Under the pieces are notes generated by a model. It had not been told where the DNA came from, made no database searches, and saw only the letters and a list, made by a program, of their open reading frames with translations. 43,292 nucleotides of DNA from Candidatus Bathyarchaeota archaeon (GTDB taxonomy: Archaea; Thermoproteota; Bathyarchaeia; TCS64), in the NCBI GenBank assembly GCA_018396695.1, contig JAGTQU010000009.1:1-43292 (forward strand). Direction: 5' to 3'. Positions 4,878 to 13,685 of this stretch are shown here, piece by piece (positions within the stretch are counted from its first letter, which is position 1; the number at the start of each line of letters is the position of its first letter). The position numbers and the translations under genes were made by a program.

Positions 4878-6191
4878 ATGGGTCAAGAAATTCAAAGATC
4901 TCGATTCTGGTACATAACTCAAAACGTGAAAGTGCTTATCGTCACCCGACTCCTCTGGGGAATCTCAAGAGGTGTAGCCACACCCTTCCTAAGCCTCTAT
5001 ATACTTGCTCTAGGGGGCACTCCTATCGAGATCGGTTTCGTGAACATGCTGGGCTTAATAGCAGGTATATTCCTATACCCTCTCGGAGGTTACATAGCCG
5101 ATAAAAAGGGCAGAGTCAAGTTAATAATATATAGCACGATAATTTTCACAATCTCTGGCTTATTTTTTGTGTTCGCATGGAGTTGGGAAATCATCGCCAT
5201 AGGCCATTTCATAACCCAGATGATGCTCTTCTACTCTCCCGCCCTCAACGCATTAGAGGCAGACTCTCTTCCGCTTAACGTGGAAAGGGATTCTCAATCA
5301 TTTTAGCAGTGCCAGATGCTACAAGGATCATTGCACCCTACCTTGGAGGCTGGCTCATCAGCTTTTACGGGGGCGATAATCTGGCAGTAGTAAACGCTAT
5401 GAGACTATGTTACGGAATATCTGTGATAATAGGCATCATAATCGCTCTCTTGCGCATGAAATATCTTCAAGAGACGATAACTAACAAAGATACAGCAGTC
5501 GAGGGTAACAACATAGGGTTCACTCAAATTTTGAGGGAAGCCTACATAGGTATGATAGATTCGATCAAGTGGATGAATAGATCTTTAAGGATAATCGTCC
5601 TAGTAGAGATAGTTACCGCTTTATCAGTCTCGCTTACAGGTCCATTTTGGATCGTATATGCCACCGGGATAATAGGTTTAACGGCTTATGATTTCGGCAT
5701 AATCCTAACGATTTCAGGAGTATTCGGAGTAGCCACCGCATATCCGATAGGGGTATTAATCGACAAGTTTGGCGCAAGGAGGATGATCCTAGCCAGCCTA
5801 GTGCTCGGGGCGGTTTTCCCACTACTCTACATACTTGTACCAGATTACATAGGAGGATTTTTAGGAGTAACTCTAGTTGTATGTGGTGTAGCATTGGTCA
5901 ACAACATCTCGATGCCAGCCTTCGCAACGATAATCGCCAACCCTGATCCCAAGAAACTTGAGAGGGAGACTCTTCGCCCTCTTGGGAGAAAGAGGGATAA
6001 CGATAGCCATCGGGCAATTCTGGGGTGGAGGATTCCTATTATTCCCTTTCGCCGCCGCTGGAGCCTATCTGGGAGGATATATGTACCTTCTTAACCCAGC
6101 ACTCCTGTGGATTTTAACATCCTTAACGATGGTCCTCAGCCTTGTTTTAGCACATTTGTACATGGAAGAACCGAAAGAAGCACATGAATAA
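4878..6191 (+). pseudogene. MFS transporter with two frameshifts
   Basis: Three consecutive segments together make a normal ~437-residue, 12-span major facilitator protein. Segment 1 (from ATG 4878, ribosome site aaggtg upstream) has spans 1-4 and the loop GGYIADKKGRVK. It runs out of frame after NVER near 5290, in the context aaaggga. The next frame continues SIILAVPDATRIIAPYLGGW and carries the second loop IGVLIDKFGARR. It runs out after KKLER at about 5965, in agaggga, and frame 3 continues RLFALLGERG through the last spans to EAHE. Both breaks are at GGG runs and the correct protein continues on the other side, so each is a one-base indel (or a sequencing error). The substrate cannot be told. 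If real, the lesions abolish function. Confidence 0.8.
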
Positions 6192-9126: not shown

Positions 9127-9612
9127 TTGGAATTAGCCGGCCAGCTTGGAGTCTTCGAAATCCTCATAAATCGGGCGAAGAAAAATATTAAAAGAATCAA
9201 GTTGTTCAGGAGCTTGGAGGTCACACCTGAGGAAGAGGAGGAGATCATAAAAAAGGTTGCAGATAAGATCAAAGAGTATGGAATGAATGCGGCAGCGATC
9301 ATGATGCTGCAGACCTTCAAACCCATGGCATACATAAGCGGGCAAACCGGGCGCTTCTTTATCAGCCCCATTCTCTATGGCCTAGGTGAGAAAATCTCCG
9401 TCGGAGCTGAGAAATTATTCATCGTCTTCGAGAATAGAGATAATATAGAAAAATTGATCAGGATGCTAGAGCAGATGACAGAAGAAGAGGAGATGAAGAA
9501 AAAAGAAGAATCAGAGAAGATAGATAAACAGAAAGGAGTAGGAGAGCCAAGAAGAAGGTTTAGACGTTTTCTCCACATCTCTAACCGTTTTCAGGACTCT
9601 CCAATATTATAA
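9127..9612 (+). CDS. Conserved-looking protein of unknown function, helical and charged
   Basis: 161 residues from TTG 9127 (MELAGQLGVFEI...). The start is chosen because a TATA box is placed for a leaderless transcript beginning there. The N-terminal half has basic helices (RAKKNIKRIKLF) and an acidic helix (TPEEEEEIIKKVADKIKEYG). A semi-hydrophobic segment follows (AAAIMMLQTFKPMAYISG, then FFISPILYGLGEKI), which may pack against a membrane or bury in a fold. The C-terminal ~40 residues are highly charged (MTEEEEMKKKEE, RRRFRRFL) and probably disordered. No domain recognised. It stands alone between two oppositely oriented or unrelated units. Confidence 0.6.
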   Translation: MELAGQLGVFEILINRAKKNIKRIKLFRSLEVTPEEEEEIIKKVADKIKEYGMNAAAIMMLQTFKPMAYISGQTGRFFISPILYGLGEKISVGAEKLFIVFENRDNIEKLIRMLEQMTEEEEMKKKEESEKIDKQKGVGEPRRRFRRFLHISNRFQDSPIL

Positions 9613-9789: not shown

Positions 9790-10422
9790 TTAGGGTACGC
9801 CCAACAATGCTTTTATGAAGTTTACAACATTTTCAGTCCATGTTCCGAGTGCAGTTATGAACCAGCCGAACTCCATTCCCCAAGAGATGCCTAGGCCTGC
9901 CATCAAGATTATGCGCCCGAACCTCGCGAAGCCTCCTAACACGCCTTTATGCTCTTTCGTGTAGATAAAGTAGAGGATGGCACATAAGCTGGCTATCCCT
10001 GCGAATACGGCTGAAACAGTTGTATATGGATCTTTGGCCGCAAGGATCGTTTCTCCTATGCTCCTGACCTGTCCTACTATCTGGCCCTCAAGGGCTCCCC
10101 CTATCAGGATCCCTATACCTATCGCGGTTAGGAGAGCAACAGGATACCGTGACACCCACCCCCAAGGTGTCAATCTTCCTAAAGTGAGGATAGCTAGGAT
10201 CAACGGGATAATCAGCAAGATCCTTCCTGATAATATGGGGGTTATTCCTGTGGTTTGAACAGCAAGGAGGCCGTACATAAGCGCGTGGGCACATCCGGCC
10301 CCTATGATTATGTGTTCTATAAGCCTGTAATATGGATTCTCTCTCCAGACGAGAGTCATTATTCCGATAGCTATGAAGCTTGACCAGCCCAACCAGAAAA
10401 GCTCCCAGGACAATCCTCTCAC
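9790..10422 (-). CDS. Operon gene 4: six-span membrane protein, unknown function
   Basis: 210 residues with about six transmembrane segments (near 8-26, 34-59, 68-88, 93-116, 137-155, 169-196) and short loops. Span 2 holds a histidine pair in EHIIIGAGCAHALMYG; histidines and a cysteine inside a membrane helix could bind a metal or cofactor, though this is only a visual suggestion. Other features are GLSWELFWLGW at the N-terminus and GMEFGWF in the last span. Its start ATG overlaps the stop of gene 3 by four bases (ATGA), implying coupled translation. It resembles gene 2 of the operon in topology. I do not recognise a family. Confidence 0.7.
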   Translation of the reverse strand: MRGLSWELFWLGWSSFIAIGIMTLVWRENPYYRLIEHIIIGAGCAHALMYGLLAVQTTGITPILSGRILLIIPLILAILTLGRLTPWGWVSRYPVALLTAIGIGILIGGALEGQIVGQVRSIGETILAAKDPYTTVSAVFAGIASLCAILYFIYTKEHKGVLGGFARFGRIILMAGLGISWGMEFGWFITALGTWTENVVNFIKALLGVP

Positions 10423-11267
10423 CTCCTCCCAAGCCTCTTTTTGCCGAAATATGCTATATTCCCGATAGCGACGAGCACTAGGGTAGGGATGCTTGCAAGA
10501 TTCTTCATGTCCGTAATCTTCGCCGCGAGGCCAGGCTCGCCGATAAAGTTCTCCATAGCTGCGCAGCCTGTTGGACCAGAAAGGTATCCCTTAGCCATCC
10601 CTGCTACCCAGTAGGATACTGCACTCATCTCGTTGCCCGAAGCGGTCATCCATAACTGTGGGATCTCTGGATGTGTGGCATACCATTGTCGAACGTATTT
10701 GTCCATTGAGGTACCTGTAGAAAATGACACGATAATCGAATGGAAATCTTTATAGCTGTCAACTTTCTGAAGGAGGGGAATATTCTCGAGCGGGGTTCCA
10801 AGGTAATCTACTGAAACTGCTTTTCTGATGCTGTCGCGGAATGCGGCTACCATCACCTCCTCCCCTGGGACATAACCAAGATAGACATAATTCTCACCGT
10901 ATTTAGCATCGAACCTATCTGGATTTGCATAACTTATGCCGAAGAGATTGGGGGGTCCTGCATCGGCGTAAACAGCTACGATGACCACATTGATCTTCTT
11001 TGACCATAAGTATTTTAGCGTGGCTGTGAAGCCTCCTTTTACCTCATCCCATCCGCTTCCAGACATCTCCTGAAAGAACAGTACATTAGAACCCGGTGGT
11101 ATCTCCTGTATAGCTTTTATAAAGTCTGCCGCCGGAGCTCCGACTGGAACTGGTAGCCCAAGTGGATGGAGTATTGGAATTATTAGGAATACGAAGACTG
11201 CGATCGCTAAAACCCACTGTGGGAAGTTCAGAAGTTTATCCCAAATTGTTTCCTCTTTTTTCATCAT
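10419..11267 (-). CDS. Operon gene 3: membrane-anchored soluble domain, unknown function
   Basis: 282 residues. One transmembrane helix near the N-terminus (about 17-37, WVLAIAVFVFLIIP) and one near the C-terminus (about 257-272) flank a ~215-residue soluble domain. The domain has alternating strand and helix character (NVLFFQEMSGSGWDEVKGG, KKINVVIVAVYADAG, FHSIIVSFSTGTSMDKYV), suggesting an alpha/beta fold, and a small-residue-rich segment GYLSGPTGCAAMENFIGEPG. The first gene of the operon has the same two-anchor layout. The ribosome site gaggtggg lies directly upstream; with two successive ATGs, the second (11264) may be the true start. No catalytic motif recognised. The domain could face either side of the membrane. 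Confidence 0.7.
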   Translation of the reverse strand: MMKKEETIWDKLLNFPQWVLAIAVFVFLIIPILHPLGLPVPVGAPAADFIKAIQEIPPGSNVLFFQEMSGSGWDEVKGGFTATLKYLWSKKINVVIVAVYADAGPPNLFGISYANPDRFDAKYGENYVYLGYVPGEEVMVAAFRDSIRKAVSVDYLGTPLENIPLLQKVDSYKDFHSIIVSFSTGTSMDKYVRQWYATHPEIPQLWMTASGNEMSAVSYWVAGMAKGYLSGPTGCAAMENFIGEPGLAAKITDMKNLASIPTLVLVAIGNIAYFGKKRLGRR

Positions 11268-11279
11268 CCCACCTCTAAC

Positions 11280-11927
11280 TCACGTAATGGCTGTTTTCTC
11301 CTTCTGTATGATCGTCCGTATACAGACGACGATGCTTATCATCGCGGCCGTCAGAACAGCCACTCGGGCGGCGGGGGTCATGACATATTTCAAGAACCAG
11401 TCCCCTACACCCGTCATGGGCGGGAATATGGCACACACGATAGGCATCTCTTTTAAGAAGTAGGATAGACCCCCGATGAGCAGAGCTAAGCCCTCCAGCC
11501 TAGTGATCCTCATCGCACGATAGACCCCCATCGTCGAGAAGATTAGGTTGAGACCCCATAGGGTAGCTGTGGCAGGGATCACCGTCTGCATGTACATGGT
11601 GACGTACTGTGTGCCTGAAAGCCCCATCCCGTAGCCAATCGCGAGGAAGATTAAGAAAGACGCTATGGCAATTAGGCTGTAGTACCTCGCCTTGGGATCG
11701 CGCGAGGGGGGTTTTATGGTTCTAAGCGTGTGGTATCTCAGCATTAAGGCTGAGCCCAAGATTGTCACGAAGTTATATATTATGACCCCCCAAGTTAATA
11801 TCTCCTTCCTGAATGCTGCCAACGGTTCTAGGGCTAGAAAGTACTCCACTAACAAGATAGCTGCCACTATGGAGATTATATACATGGGGACATGGGATCT
11901 TACGACTACATTAGCCATCTTCGACAC
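11280..11927 (-). CDS. Operon gene 2: six-span membrane protein, unknown function
   Basis: 215 residues with about six hydrophobic spans (near 14-32, 46-66, 83-105, 115-137, 146-166, 185-207). Loops are short and positively charged ones (RYHTLRTIKPPSRDPKARYY, YRAMRITRLEG) indicate their cytoplasmic side. It begins three bases after gene 1 and ends 12 bases before gene 3, so translation is likely coupled. No transporter or enzyme signature is visible. Proline and small residues within spans 4 and 6 (VIPATATLWGLN, MTPAARVAVLTA) are consistent with a channel-forming or helix-packing subunit. It is probably the membrane partner of the single-domain proteins on each side. Confidence 0.7.
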   Translation of the reverse strand: MSKMANVVVRSHVPMYIISIVAAILLVEYFLALEPLAAFRKEILTWGVIIYNFVTILGSALMLRYHTLRTIKPPSRDPKARYYSLIAIASFLIFLAIGYGMGLSGTQYVTMYMQTVIPATATLWGLNLIFSTMGVYRAMRITRLEGLALLIGGLSYFLKEMPIVCAIFPPMTGVGDWFLKYVMTPAARVAVLTAAMISIVVCIRTIIQKEKTAIT

Positions 11928-11930
11928 TTC

Positions 11931-12719
11931 CTACATTTTTAAGACGTTTATTAGCGCGTCGATGTGCATTAAGCCTGTAAGAATGCCAAGGACTCCGATC
12001 CCGATCAGGAATATTTTGACGATATCTTCGCCAGCCAGGGTGGCCGTCATCGAGGGATCCCCTGACACTAAAGTCCCCGCAGCTAGTACTTCCTCGCAGA
12101 TCAGTACATAGTCGCATGAGATAGCTTGCCCATACATTGCAGTCCATCTTGTGGTCCCACCAATGTTTATCGCTCCGATCTGCGCCGCCACCGCGTGGCT
12201 CTGTATCTCCGTGTAGAAAACACCAACCTGAACATTGAGAGCTACGTTGTTCCTAAGTACTGTACCGCATCTTGCGATCTTATAGGCAGAAGGTCCATAA
12301 TATAGAATATTGTCCTCCCTATACAGCTCGGGTTTTCCCTCCTCCGCATAAGCCGATTGAGCAATTCCCTGAACAACCGGGATTATCTCCGCAACTCCAG
12401 GAAGACTCGTATAGACTGGCACCTCCTGCTTGGCGGCAAGTTTGAGCGTGTGTTTATAGACGTTCAAAGCGGAGATGACCGCAGGCCCCCACTCACCGGA
12501 GATCTGACCAAAATCACCAACGGAATAATGAATAGGTCTACCCATCTCTGCGCATCTGCCTATCCCCTCCTCAATTGCATCAACCGCAGGAATCCTACGT
12601 ATCCGTGGAATTGGCTTCCCTTTCGAAACCATCCATAGATAGTAGCTCATCATCGCAAAGAGAAGTACTAGAACAATTAAGTCGAAAATTACTCCAGTCT
12701 TCAACATTGCATTTTCCAA
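11931..12719 (-). CDS. Operon gene 1: DUF6754-like membrane-anchored protein
   Basis: 262 residues. The N-terminal transmembrane helix (about 8-29) is followed by the conserved-looking basic linker GKPIPRIRRIPAVDAIEEGI. The soluble domain then runs through GRCAEMGRPIHYSVGDFG, QIGAINIGGTTRWTAMYGQA and LAAGTLVSGDPSMTATLAGED. A C-terminal helix at about 235-255 ends the protein. From memory this matches proteins annotated only as DUF6754 in archaea and bacteria; this could not be checked here. A domain of ~200 residues between two membrane anchors is also seen in gene 3. An AT-rich TATA element 20-35 bases ahead of the ATG suggests a leaderless transcript. It leads the operon 12719-9790. Confidence 0.7.
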   Translation of the reverse strand: MENAMLKTGVIFDLIVLVLLFAMMSYYLWMVSKGKPIPRIRRIPAVDAIEEGIGRCAEMGRPIHYSVGDFGQISGEWGPAVISALNVYKHTLKLAAKQEVPVYTSLPGVAEIIPVVQGIAQSAYAEEGKPELYREDNILYYGPSAYKIARCGTVLRNNVALNVQVGVFYTEIQSHAVAAQIGAINIGGTTRWTAMYGQAISCDYVLICEEVLAAGTLVSGDPSMTATLAGEDIVKIFLIGIGVLGILTGLMHIDALINVLKM

Positions 12720-12738
12720 ATAAATATTATAAGTACAG

Positions 12739-12754: not shown

Positions 12755-13331
12755 CTTTCTATAGGCGGATTTAGGCTTATTGGTTCTCACTTAGCCCTCG
12801 TTTAGCTCAAATACAGACCGAGAAAGGATCCGAGGACCGATATAGTCTCAATAAAAGAGAGATCGGTACTAATATCAAGTATAATAATGGACTAAAGAGT
12901 TGACAGTTGGATCATTATAACCGTCTGGGGCTTTTTACCATCAGTTAAAAAGGGAAGTCATATGAGCATTCTCCTCAATTCGAGGCCTTCCTCGATCCAG
13001 TCTGCAAAGCCACCGAGGCGTCGGAGAGGCGATAGTCAACGCCGACTTGCGAAGATGAGTGCAAAGATCAACGAAACCATTCGAGACGGGTTGCCTCACG
13101 ACTAGGTCAAAGACATCATAGAGGATAGCTAAAGCCTTTAAGAACATATGACTACCATTTATTCAATCAATTCTTGCTATCTAGTTTAAGCCAGATGATC
13201 TCATCTAGATCCTCCTGTTTCGCTAATAACTGAGCTGCGTAGTGGCTAAGGTTTTAATGTTAAAAATCTGAGAAATCAGGCAAAGATTTATGTTTGTTTT
13301 ATTCTTATGTAAGTGTAGGTGCTTTCTAACT
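12755..13331. other. Intergenic stretch, no convincing gene
   Basis: About 575 bases upstream of the membrane operon. The middle part (12960-13110) is more GC-rich than its surroundings and open in two opposed frames: plus-strand 12960-13103 (MSILLNSRPSS...RDGLPHD) and minus-strand 12941-13147. Both have unusual composition, arginine-rich and low-complexity on the plus strand, and neither has a ribosome site. I see no RNA gene or repeat. It may be a worn-out gene. Near the right end aggtg (about 13316-13320) is the ribosome site of the next gene. Confidence 0.4.
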
Positions 13332-13685
13332 ATGAGAAGCTATATCAAGATTTATGGCCCACCCGTAGTGAAGGCCATCAAAGCCTTAGAGAAGGTCGCC
13401 ATCGATGTCCCTGAAGTTTGTATTATGGACACATTCATCGAATCATATATGCCAACTTTTGATTCCCGAGAGGGGATAATAGGATACTTTTCTGGTCTAG
13501 GCGAGATCTCAGTCGAGAGGTGCGACAAGATTATCAGCAAGTCGGGGGAGATGTTAGGGGATTATGACTTCTACTTCGAGTGGTTCAAGGAACCCAGCAT
13601 AGACGAACTGAACAACCTTATAGAGAAGATCGATGTAGCGCTCGCCCCTCTTGGATGTAAATATACGATCACGACAAGGAGATAA
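13332..13685 (+). CDS. Small alpha/beta protein of unknown function
   Basis: 117 residues from ATG 13332, with aggtg about 11 bases upstream; the frame is open further back, but the upstream residues (FVLFLCKCRCF) look non-native. The pattern is compact alpha/beta: SYIKIYGPPVVKAIKALEKVA, then PEVCIMDTFIESYMP, GIIGYFSGLGEIS, DFYFEWFKEP, and a final helix-strand LNNLIEKIDVALAPLGCKYTI. Two cysteines lie far apart. It looks like a folded cytoplasmic protein with good codon statistics. I have no family name for it, though the type is common in uncultured archaea. It is monocistronic as far as can be seen. Confidence 0.65.
   Translation: MRSYIKIYGPPVVKAIKALEKVAIDVPEVCIMDTFIESYMPTFDSREGIIGYFSGLGEISVERCDKIISKSGEMLGDYDFYFEWFKEPSIDELNNLIEKIDVALAPLGCKYTITTRR

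Follow-up and report, generated by a model that had tools for sequence, protein, structure and literature searches.

Group II energy-coupling factor (ECF) transporters depend on a shared ATP-using module, which serves numerous membrane-bound specificity units encoded at scattered sites of the genome. ATPases with the ASKHA fold (actin/Hsp70/sugar-kinase type) are, to our knowledge, not known to power membrane transport, and GlmL is regarded as an accessory protein of the B12 mutases rather than an engine. ASKHA subunits act in ATP-dependent cyclic-amide hydrolases, including 5-oxoprolinase and caprolactamase (PMC8453981, PMC5214803). Here we describe a cassette of four membrane-protein genes, g1-g2-g3-g4, in a 43,292-nucleotide stretch of DNA (hereafter the window) from Candidatus Bathyarchaeota archaeon (assembly GCA_018396695.1, contig JAGTQU010000009.1). 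The architecture of the four-subunit membrane unit and its partnership with two soluble proteins, an ATPase of the MutL family and a protein named c0, are well supported. We found no described system to which the membrane complex belongs. We propose tentatively that the cassette encodes the membrane portion of a solute transporter of a new, multi-subunit kind, and the function is the weak point of this reading.

Conservation and distribution of the four-gene cassette

The four open reading frames (ORFs) lie on the minus strand at the positions given in the original prediction, and the spacings claimed there (3, 12 and −4 bases) proved exact against the sequence, with two gaps of 3 and 12 bases and one 4-base overlap. 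g1 (11931–12719, minus strand) encodes a DUF6754 protein, in which a Rossmann-like domain, predicted to be cytoplasmic, lies between two transmembrane helices. g3 (10419–11267, minus strand) has the same layout with a Rossmann-like domain that is placed outside the cytoplasm on the basis of an AlphaFold model and flank charges. g2 (11280–11927, minus strand) encodes a membrane protein with five to six spans and g4 (9790–10422, minus strand) a six-span membrane protein; homologues of both are present in nearly all cassettes.

We found 129 complete g1-g2-g3-g4 cassettes, spread over archaea and about twelve phyla of bacteria. The genome of the window carries five complete paralogous cassettes, four of them outside the window, and the number of DUF6754 copies per genome reached a maximum of 15 in the same archaeal order. 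A scan of named genomes gave 80 loci. The archaea among them were Bathyarchaeota, Methanomethylicota, Culexarchaeum, Desulfurococcaceae, Sulfolobales, and Zestosphaera, and the bacteria were Bacillota, Chloroflexota, WOR-3/Stahlbacteria, Eisenbacteria, Poribacteria, Nitrospira, Latescibacterota, Zixibacteria, Edwardsbacteria, Mcinerneyibacteriota, Methylomirabilota, and others. The cassette is thus not confined to the genome in which it was noticed, a point that the original prediction had left to be checked. The genes g1-g2-g3-g4 were on one strand in nearly all loci, and several bacteria had two or three cassettes in tandem. The five paralogous copies in one genome and the order kept in 129 cassettes indicate that the arrangement is not a product of chance.

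The divergence of the four proteins was correlated (Spearman 0.69–0.79 for pairwise identities over all pairs of the 129 cassettes). The kept order and the correlated identities indicate that the four proteins are for the most part inherited and diverge together, which supports the view that they form one assembly. The identity between paralogues was 34% for g1, the cytoplasmic and most conserved subunit, compared with 26–29% for g2–g4.

The resemblance of g1 to DUF6754 noted in the original prediction was confirmed by a match to PF20539 (E value, 1.3e-39) that scored 136 bits against a gathering cut-off of 27 and covered the full domain (positions 7–255 of 257). Residues R55, E58, G166, D203, and E210 of g1 are invariant. 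No convincing match was found for g2, g3, and g4 in Pfam or NCBIfam, and sequence searches of the PDB with profiles of g1–g4 gave no match for any of the four. As predicted, no known transporter, protease, or secretion signature was matched in the Pfam and NCBIfam searches. Among the papers searched for DUF6754, PF20539, PF13941, and GlmL, none was relevant.

Soluble partners of the cassette

The partners were found by clustering the proteins encoded around the cassettes. The original prediction of a four-gene unit was right about the unit and part of its architecture, and it missed MutL, c0, a third protein named c2, the multi-copy nature of the cassette, and its spread over two domains of life. 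The MutL partner is a soluble protein of about 615 residues and a full-length member of Pfam MutL (PF13941), that is, a GlmL-type ASKHA ATPase; the two copies in the genome of the window scored 393 and 376 bits against PF13941, which is over the cut-off. Against the three NCBIfam models of B12-mutase accessory proteins, the partner each time scored less than the cut-off (210 vs 600, 208 vs 475, and 145 vs 204 bits). In regards to c0, this protein of about 380 residues contains a sub-threshold barrel-sandwich domain (RnfC_N/Biotin_lipoyl; E value, 1e-3) and a C-terminal KOW-like region with weak similarity to Spt5, NusG, and L24.

MutL-c0-g1-g2-g3-g4 occurred as a single run in a Bathyarchaeota metagenome-assembled genome (MAG) and in Nitrospira, Zixibacteria, Methylomirabilota, Effluviviaceae, and others. 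Of the 300 genomes of the phylum that were searched, the same 7, which came from five families, held DUF6754 (over the cut-off), MutL, and c0; one additional DUF6754 match was under the cut-off and full of stops. Within the same order, DUF6754 was present in 30 of 32 genomes and MutL and c0 in 29 each, and c0 was present in 24 of 25 DUF6754 genomes spread over many phyla. One exception (genome G024) had five DUF6754 genes and neither MutL nor c0. We describe the co-occurrence as strong and not literally strict, because the seven genomes are not phylogenetically independent and most of the genomes are MAGs.

Cassettes outnumber MutL-c0 pairs in archaea (7:1, 6:1, 15:3, and 5:2). Two MutL-c0 pairs were found in the genome of the window, both on other contigs and both accompanied by a c2 gene. 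A 1015-residue protein of a Mcinerneyibacteriota genome is a fusion of a helix-turn-helix region, MutL, and c0 (L209:8878-11925, the same gene as L146:3878-6925; L numbers denote loci). Many of the same genomes also hold another class of MutL that has no cassette and is paired with a short c0 lacking the KOW part (L206-L212, e.g. L206:8179-10861); next to it are a gene for an ArsR-like regulator and genes of the hydantoinase, amidase, or M24 type.

c2 (9127–9612, plus strand) encodes a small soluble helical protein and is convergent with g4. It recurs beside cassettes and beside MutL-c0, in contrast to 0 of 38 control loci, and copies 72–74% identical adjoin the orthologous cassettes in L040 and L171. 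No ABC (ATP-binding cassette) or ECF domain (ABC ATPase, permease, EcfT, or S-component) was found in g1–g4, MutL, c0, or c2.

Two further clusters recur beside cassettes or MutL-c0 and were likewise found in 0 of 38 control loci. They are a DUF483-like protein (c17; L006, L041, L061, L065, L130, L139, L140, L170, L179, L213, and L214) and a small three-span protein (c11; L052, L054, L056, L065, L079, L131, L139, L140, L178, L179, and L185), both of which are possible further parts of the system. The window also encodes a 131-residue protein of no known family (13290–13685, plus strand), and a paralogue of it is encoded next to MutL-c0 elsewhere in this genome (L185:8323-8679). This protein was set aside as a part of the system because it has homologues in control loci too.

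Predicted structure and sidedness

AlphaFold2 models were built with 90 homologues for g1 and 82 for g3, and their mean predicted local distance difference test (pLDDT) values were 93.6 and 94.6, respectively. Both models have a six-stranded alternating α/β domain flanked by N- and C-terminal membrane helices, with the secondary-structure elements in the same order. The models agree with the earlier description of g1 and g3 as soluble domains between two membrane anchors, and the predicted spans of g2 (five to six) and g4 (six) are close to the approximately six that had been assigned to each. Foldseek searches against the PDB gave generic Rossmann matches only, the best having an E value of 7e-3 for g1 and an E value of 9e-4 with a TM-score of 0.36 for g3.

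In g1 the mean net flank charge was +3.7 after helix 1; in g3 it was +1.4 ahead of helix 1 and +2.7 following helix 2. On the positive-inside rule, these charges predict a cytoplasmic g1 domain and an extracytoplasmic g3 domain. The g1 proteins of bacteria have a signal peptide and an Fn3-like region ahead of helix 1 (the Fn3 likeness was read by eye, and Pfam gave no call), which agrees with a g1 domain inside the cell.

The alternation of anchored domains and six-span proteins had suggested an ancient duplication of a two-gene unit. Such a duplication is not supported by profile comparison with hhalign, which gave a probability of 12% for g1 against g3 and 7% for g2 against g4, nor by the predicted opposite membrane sides of the two soluble domains. 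The modelled element order may reflect a very old common origin of g1 and g3. The small-residue-rich segments that had been taken as possibly equivalent are not equivalent in the models; the g1 segment trails the last helix of the domain, and the g3 segment forms the last strand plus helix.

Two unusual variants were observed. A long run of HEAT/PBS-lyase repeats is inserted in the extracytoplasmic domain of one g3 (L077:4075-6009). In a Poribacteria MAG, g2 and g4 (L070:9964-11085 and L070:11940-13034) carry look-alike loop inserts of roughly 130–170 residues, which hints that both loops face the same side.

Putative transcription signals and neighbouring genes

A putative TATA-like promoter element, TTATAATATTTA, was read from the sequence upstream of g1 (12721–12732, minus strand). 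As listed, g1 (TTG 12719) and g2 (GTG 11927) probably start 12 and 9 bases too far upstream, because the approximately 80% identical orthologue in L040 begins at the residues encoded by ATG 12707 and ATG 11918, the likely true starts. The claim of a TATA element at leaderless distance holds when counted from ATG 12707 and fails when counted from the listed TTG 12719. The T7 tract predicted after the last gene is present (9766–9760, minus strand) and is a putative terminator behind g4.

A radical S-adenosylmethionine (SAM) gene (PF04055; 14181–15260, plus strand) is also present in the window, and genes 66–67% identical to it adjoin the orthologous cassettes in L040 and L171. It is possibly a pathway enzyme and not a core part. 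The orthologous cassettes in two relatives are also near a D-aminoacylase gene and a CoA-transferase gene. Elsewhere in the window, a major facilitator superfamily (MFS) transporter gene is broken into two frames (4878–5306 and 5309–6094, plus strand); the same gene in a relative (L171:3507-4805) is one 432-residue ORF, and the split is a frameshift or an assembly error. Bacterial MutL-c0-cassette runs in L072, L086, L088, and L108 lie behind glycine dehydrogenase genes, and some of them precede a lipoate-ligase gene that overlaps g4. A HEARO RNA (L224:3029-3245) is near a cassette of a Fermentithermobacillus genome.

Proposed function

In the transporter that we propose, probably an importer, g2 and g4 would together form a pathway of about 12 helices and g3 would capture the solute outside. 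The most conserved subunit, g1, would be the docking and gating site for MutL-c0, and the ATP cycle of MutL-c0 would drive or reset the pathway. The cassette copies would differ in substrate and share one or a few MutL-c0 pairs. Transport is suggested by the many divergent copies per genome that share few ATPase pairs, the capture-like outer domain, the more conserved cytoplasmic subunit, the approximately 12 spans of g2 and g4, and the gene company. A further-reaching reading, which we consider rather doubtful, is a wholly new class of primary active transporter common to archaea and bacteria; its membrane cassettes of four subunits would be interchangeable and would be driven by an ATPase of the ASKHA fold together with a barrel-sandwich adaptor.

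The gene company offered clues to the substrate. Amidohydrolase, creatininase, S58, S-Me-THD, 5-oxoprolinase, and M20 genes neighbour cassettes in two distant lineages, and amidohydrolases made up 8 of 101 proteins in the Bacillota neighbourhoods. We guess that the substrates in this lineage are amino-acid derivatives or small peptides. A thiamine substrate was considered, since thiD lies beside five cassettes and two thiamine pyrophosphate (TPP) riboswitches were found. It was rejected; the riboswitch in L048 is separated from the cassette by other genes and lies over 5 kb upstream of it. Riboswitches were also sought as a substrate clue ahead of other bacterial cassettes, and none was found.

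Several observations weigh against the transporter. No homology to any transporter was found in g1–g4. In the discovery set of the archaeal order, D-aminoacylase-like amidohydrolases, creatininases, S-Me-THD (DUF917), or S58 peptidases were present at 18 of 44 cassette loci and 1 of 38 control loci, but these families were picked after viewing the same loci. A held-out test fixed beforehand was run for this reason, and the signal was not repeated (6/20 vs 3/20; p = 0.45). The substrate class therefore stays a guess, the amide-hydrolase neighbourhood was dropped as proof of it, and the case for transport rests mainly on architecture and copy number. The TPP riboswitch in L221 is located between the cassette and thiD and so does not tie the cassette to thiamine. 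Single-copy bacterial cassettes, such as that of Nitrospira, have no obvious catabolic context. The correlation of divergence was weaker and less regular within genomes (0.34–0.68 in the best-sampled genome), and within one set of four cassettes it was partly near zero. Finally, the cassette-free occurrence of MutL with a short c0 indicates that MutL-c0 can act without a membrane part.

The main rival is a membrane-bound enzyme complex, in which MutL-c0 performs an ATP-dependent step on amino-acid derivatives and g1–g4 anchor it or handle the product. MutL-c0 might be the enzyme and the cassette its membrane partner, because ASKHA subunits power cyclic-amide hydrolases. S-Me-THD, PxpBC-type 5-oxoprolinase, creatininase, and hydantoinase genes beside cassettes or MutL-c0 are consistent with this explanation, as are the cassette-free MutL with short c0 beside hydantoinase or amidase genes and the invariant charged residues of g1 (R55, E58, D203, and E210). 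We consider it unlikely, however, since a soluble hydrolase needs neither some 16 membrane spans nor an extracytoplasmic domain, many bacterial loci have no such enzymes nearby, and the held-out neighbour test was not significant. The system could instead be an envelope machine for sensing, export, or surface-structure assembly, whose outer contacts would be g3 and, in bacteria, the Fn3-like part of g1; the signal peptide and Fn3-like region of bacterial g1, the HEAT repeats of one g3, and the tandem cassettes of bacteria of the FCB (Fibrobacteres–Chlorobi–Bacteroidetes) type near TonB-receptor-like and PorV-like genes would fit. This is improbable, given that the archaeal cassettes have no Fn3 part, no secretion family was matched, and up to 15 scattered copies near metabolic genes fit substrate diversity better.

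MutL-c0 could also be an assembly or repair chaperone of the membrane complex rather than its engine, transport, if any, being driven by an ion gradient. The presumed accessory role of GlmL, the ATPase-to-cassette ratios below 1, and conserved charged residues in g4 and g2 (e.g. E36 and R188) count in favor of this reading. The near-strict co-occurrence and the operon linkage in two domains of life nevertheless make this quite improbable, because chaperones are more often dispensable. A further alternative, a redox-driven ion pump of the Rnf/Nqr kind, would account for the two six-span proteins, the anchored domains on both sides, and the RnfC_N-like region of c0 (E value, 1e-3, which misses the cut-off). 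It is highly improbable and was rejected, since no cofactor motifs were seen; no cysteine pattern is conserved, and no Rnf/Nqr, flavin, or iron-sulphur family was matched in any member in Pfam or NCBIfam.

Comparison with known systems

If the proposed solute transporter is real, it would be a new way of coupling ATP to solute movement. A membrane system that archaea share with about twelve phyla of bacteria, with as many as 15 copies in a single genome, would then have gone unnamed, although three of the four membrane proteins and one of the soluble partners fall outside every known family. A function would be gained for DUF6754 and for a large branch of the GlmL/MutL family, together with a handle on what uncultured Bathyarchaeia and their relatives take up. 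Named, near-culture hosts, for example Symbiobacterium and Fermentithermobacillus, make the question of uptake testable.

g1 matches DUF6754 over its whole length and well over the cut-off, but neither a function nor a cassette or partners have been described for that family. Relative to GlmL/MutL (PF13941; NF040744, NF040745, and TIGR01319), the MutL partner shares full-length Pfam membership and the ASKHA-type phosphate motif ATDVGSTTTK. It differs in being about 150 residues longer and below the NCBIfam cut-offs, and it is linked to c0 and a membrane cassette instead of a B12 mutase. The HyuA/5-oxoprolinase/caprolactamase systems (PMC8453981, PMC5214803) are similar in their ASKHA subunit, which uses ATP in cyclic-amide breakdown, and in their archaeal gene company, whereas the partner here is a PF13941 protein with a membrane cassette and no HyuB-type partner was seen. 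Rnf/Nqr likewise combines a pair of six-span subunits with domains anchored on either side of the membrane and a soluble barrel-sandwich protein, but the cassette has no sequence match, cofactor family, or conserved cysteine pattern in common with it. Compared with group II ECF transporters, the ATPase is of the ASKHA type and not an ABC protein, there is no EcfT or S-component homology, and the cassette has an extracytoplasmic domain; the likeness is that MutL-c0 may similarly serve many scattered cassettes.

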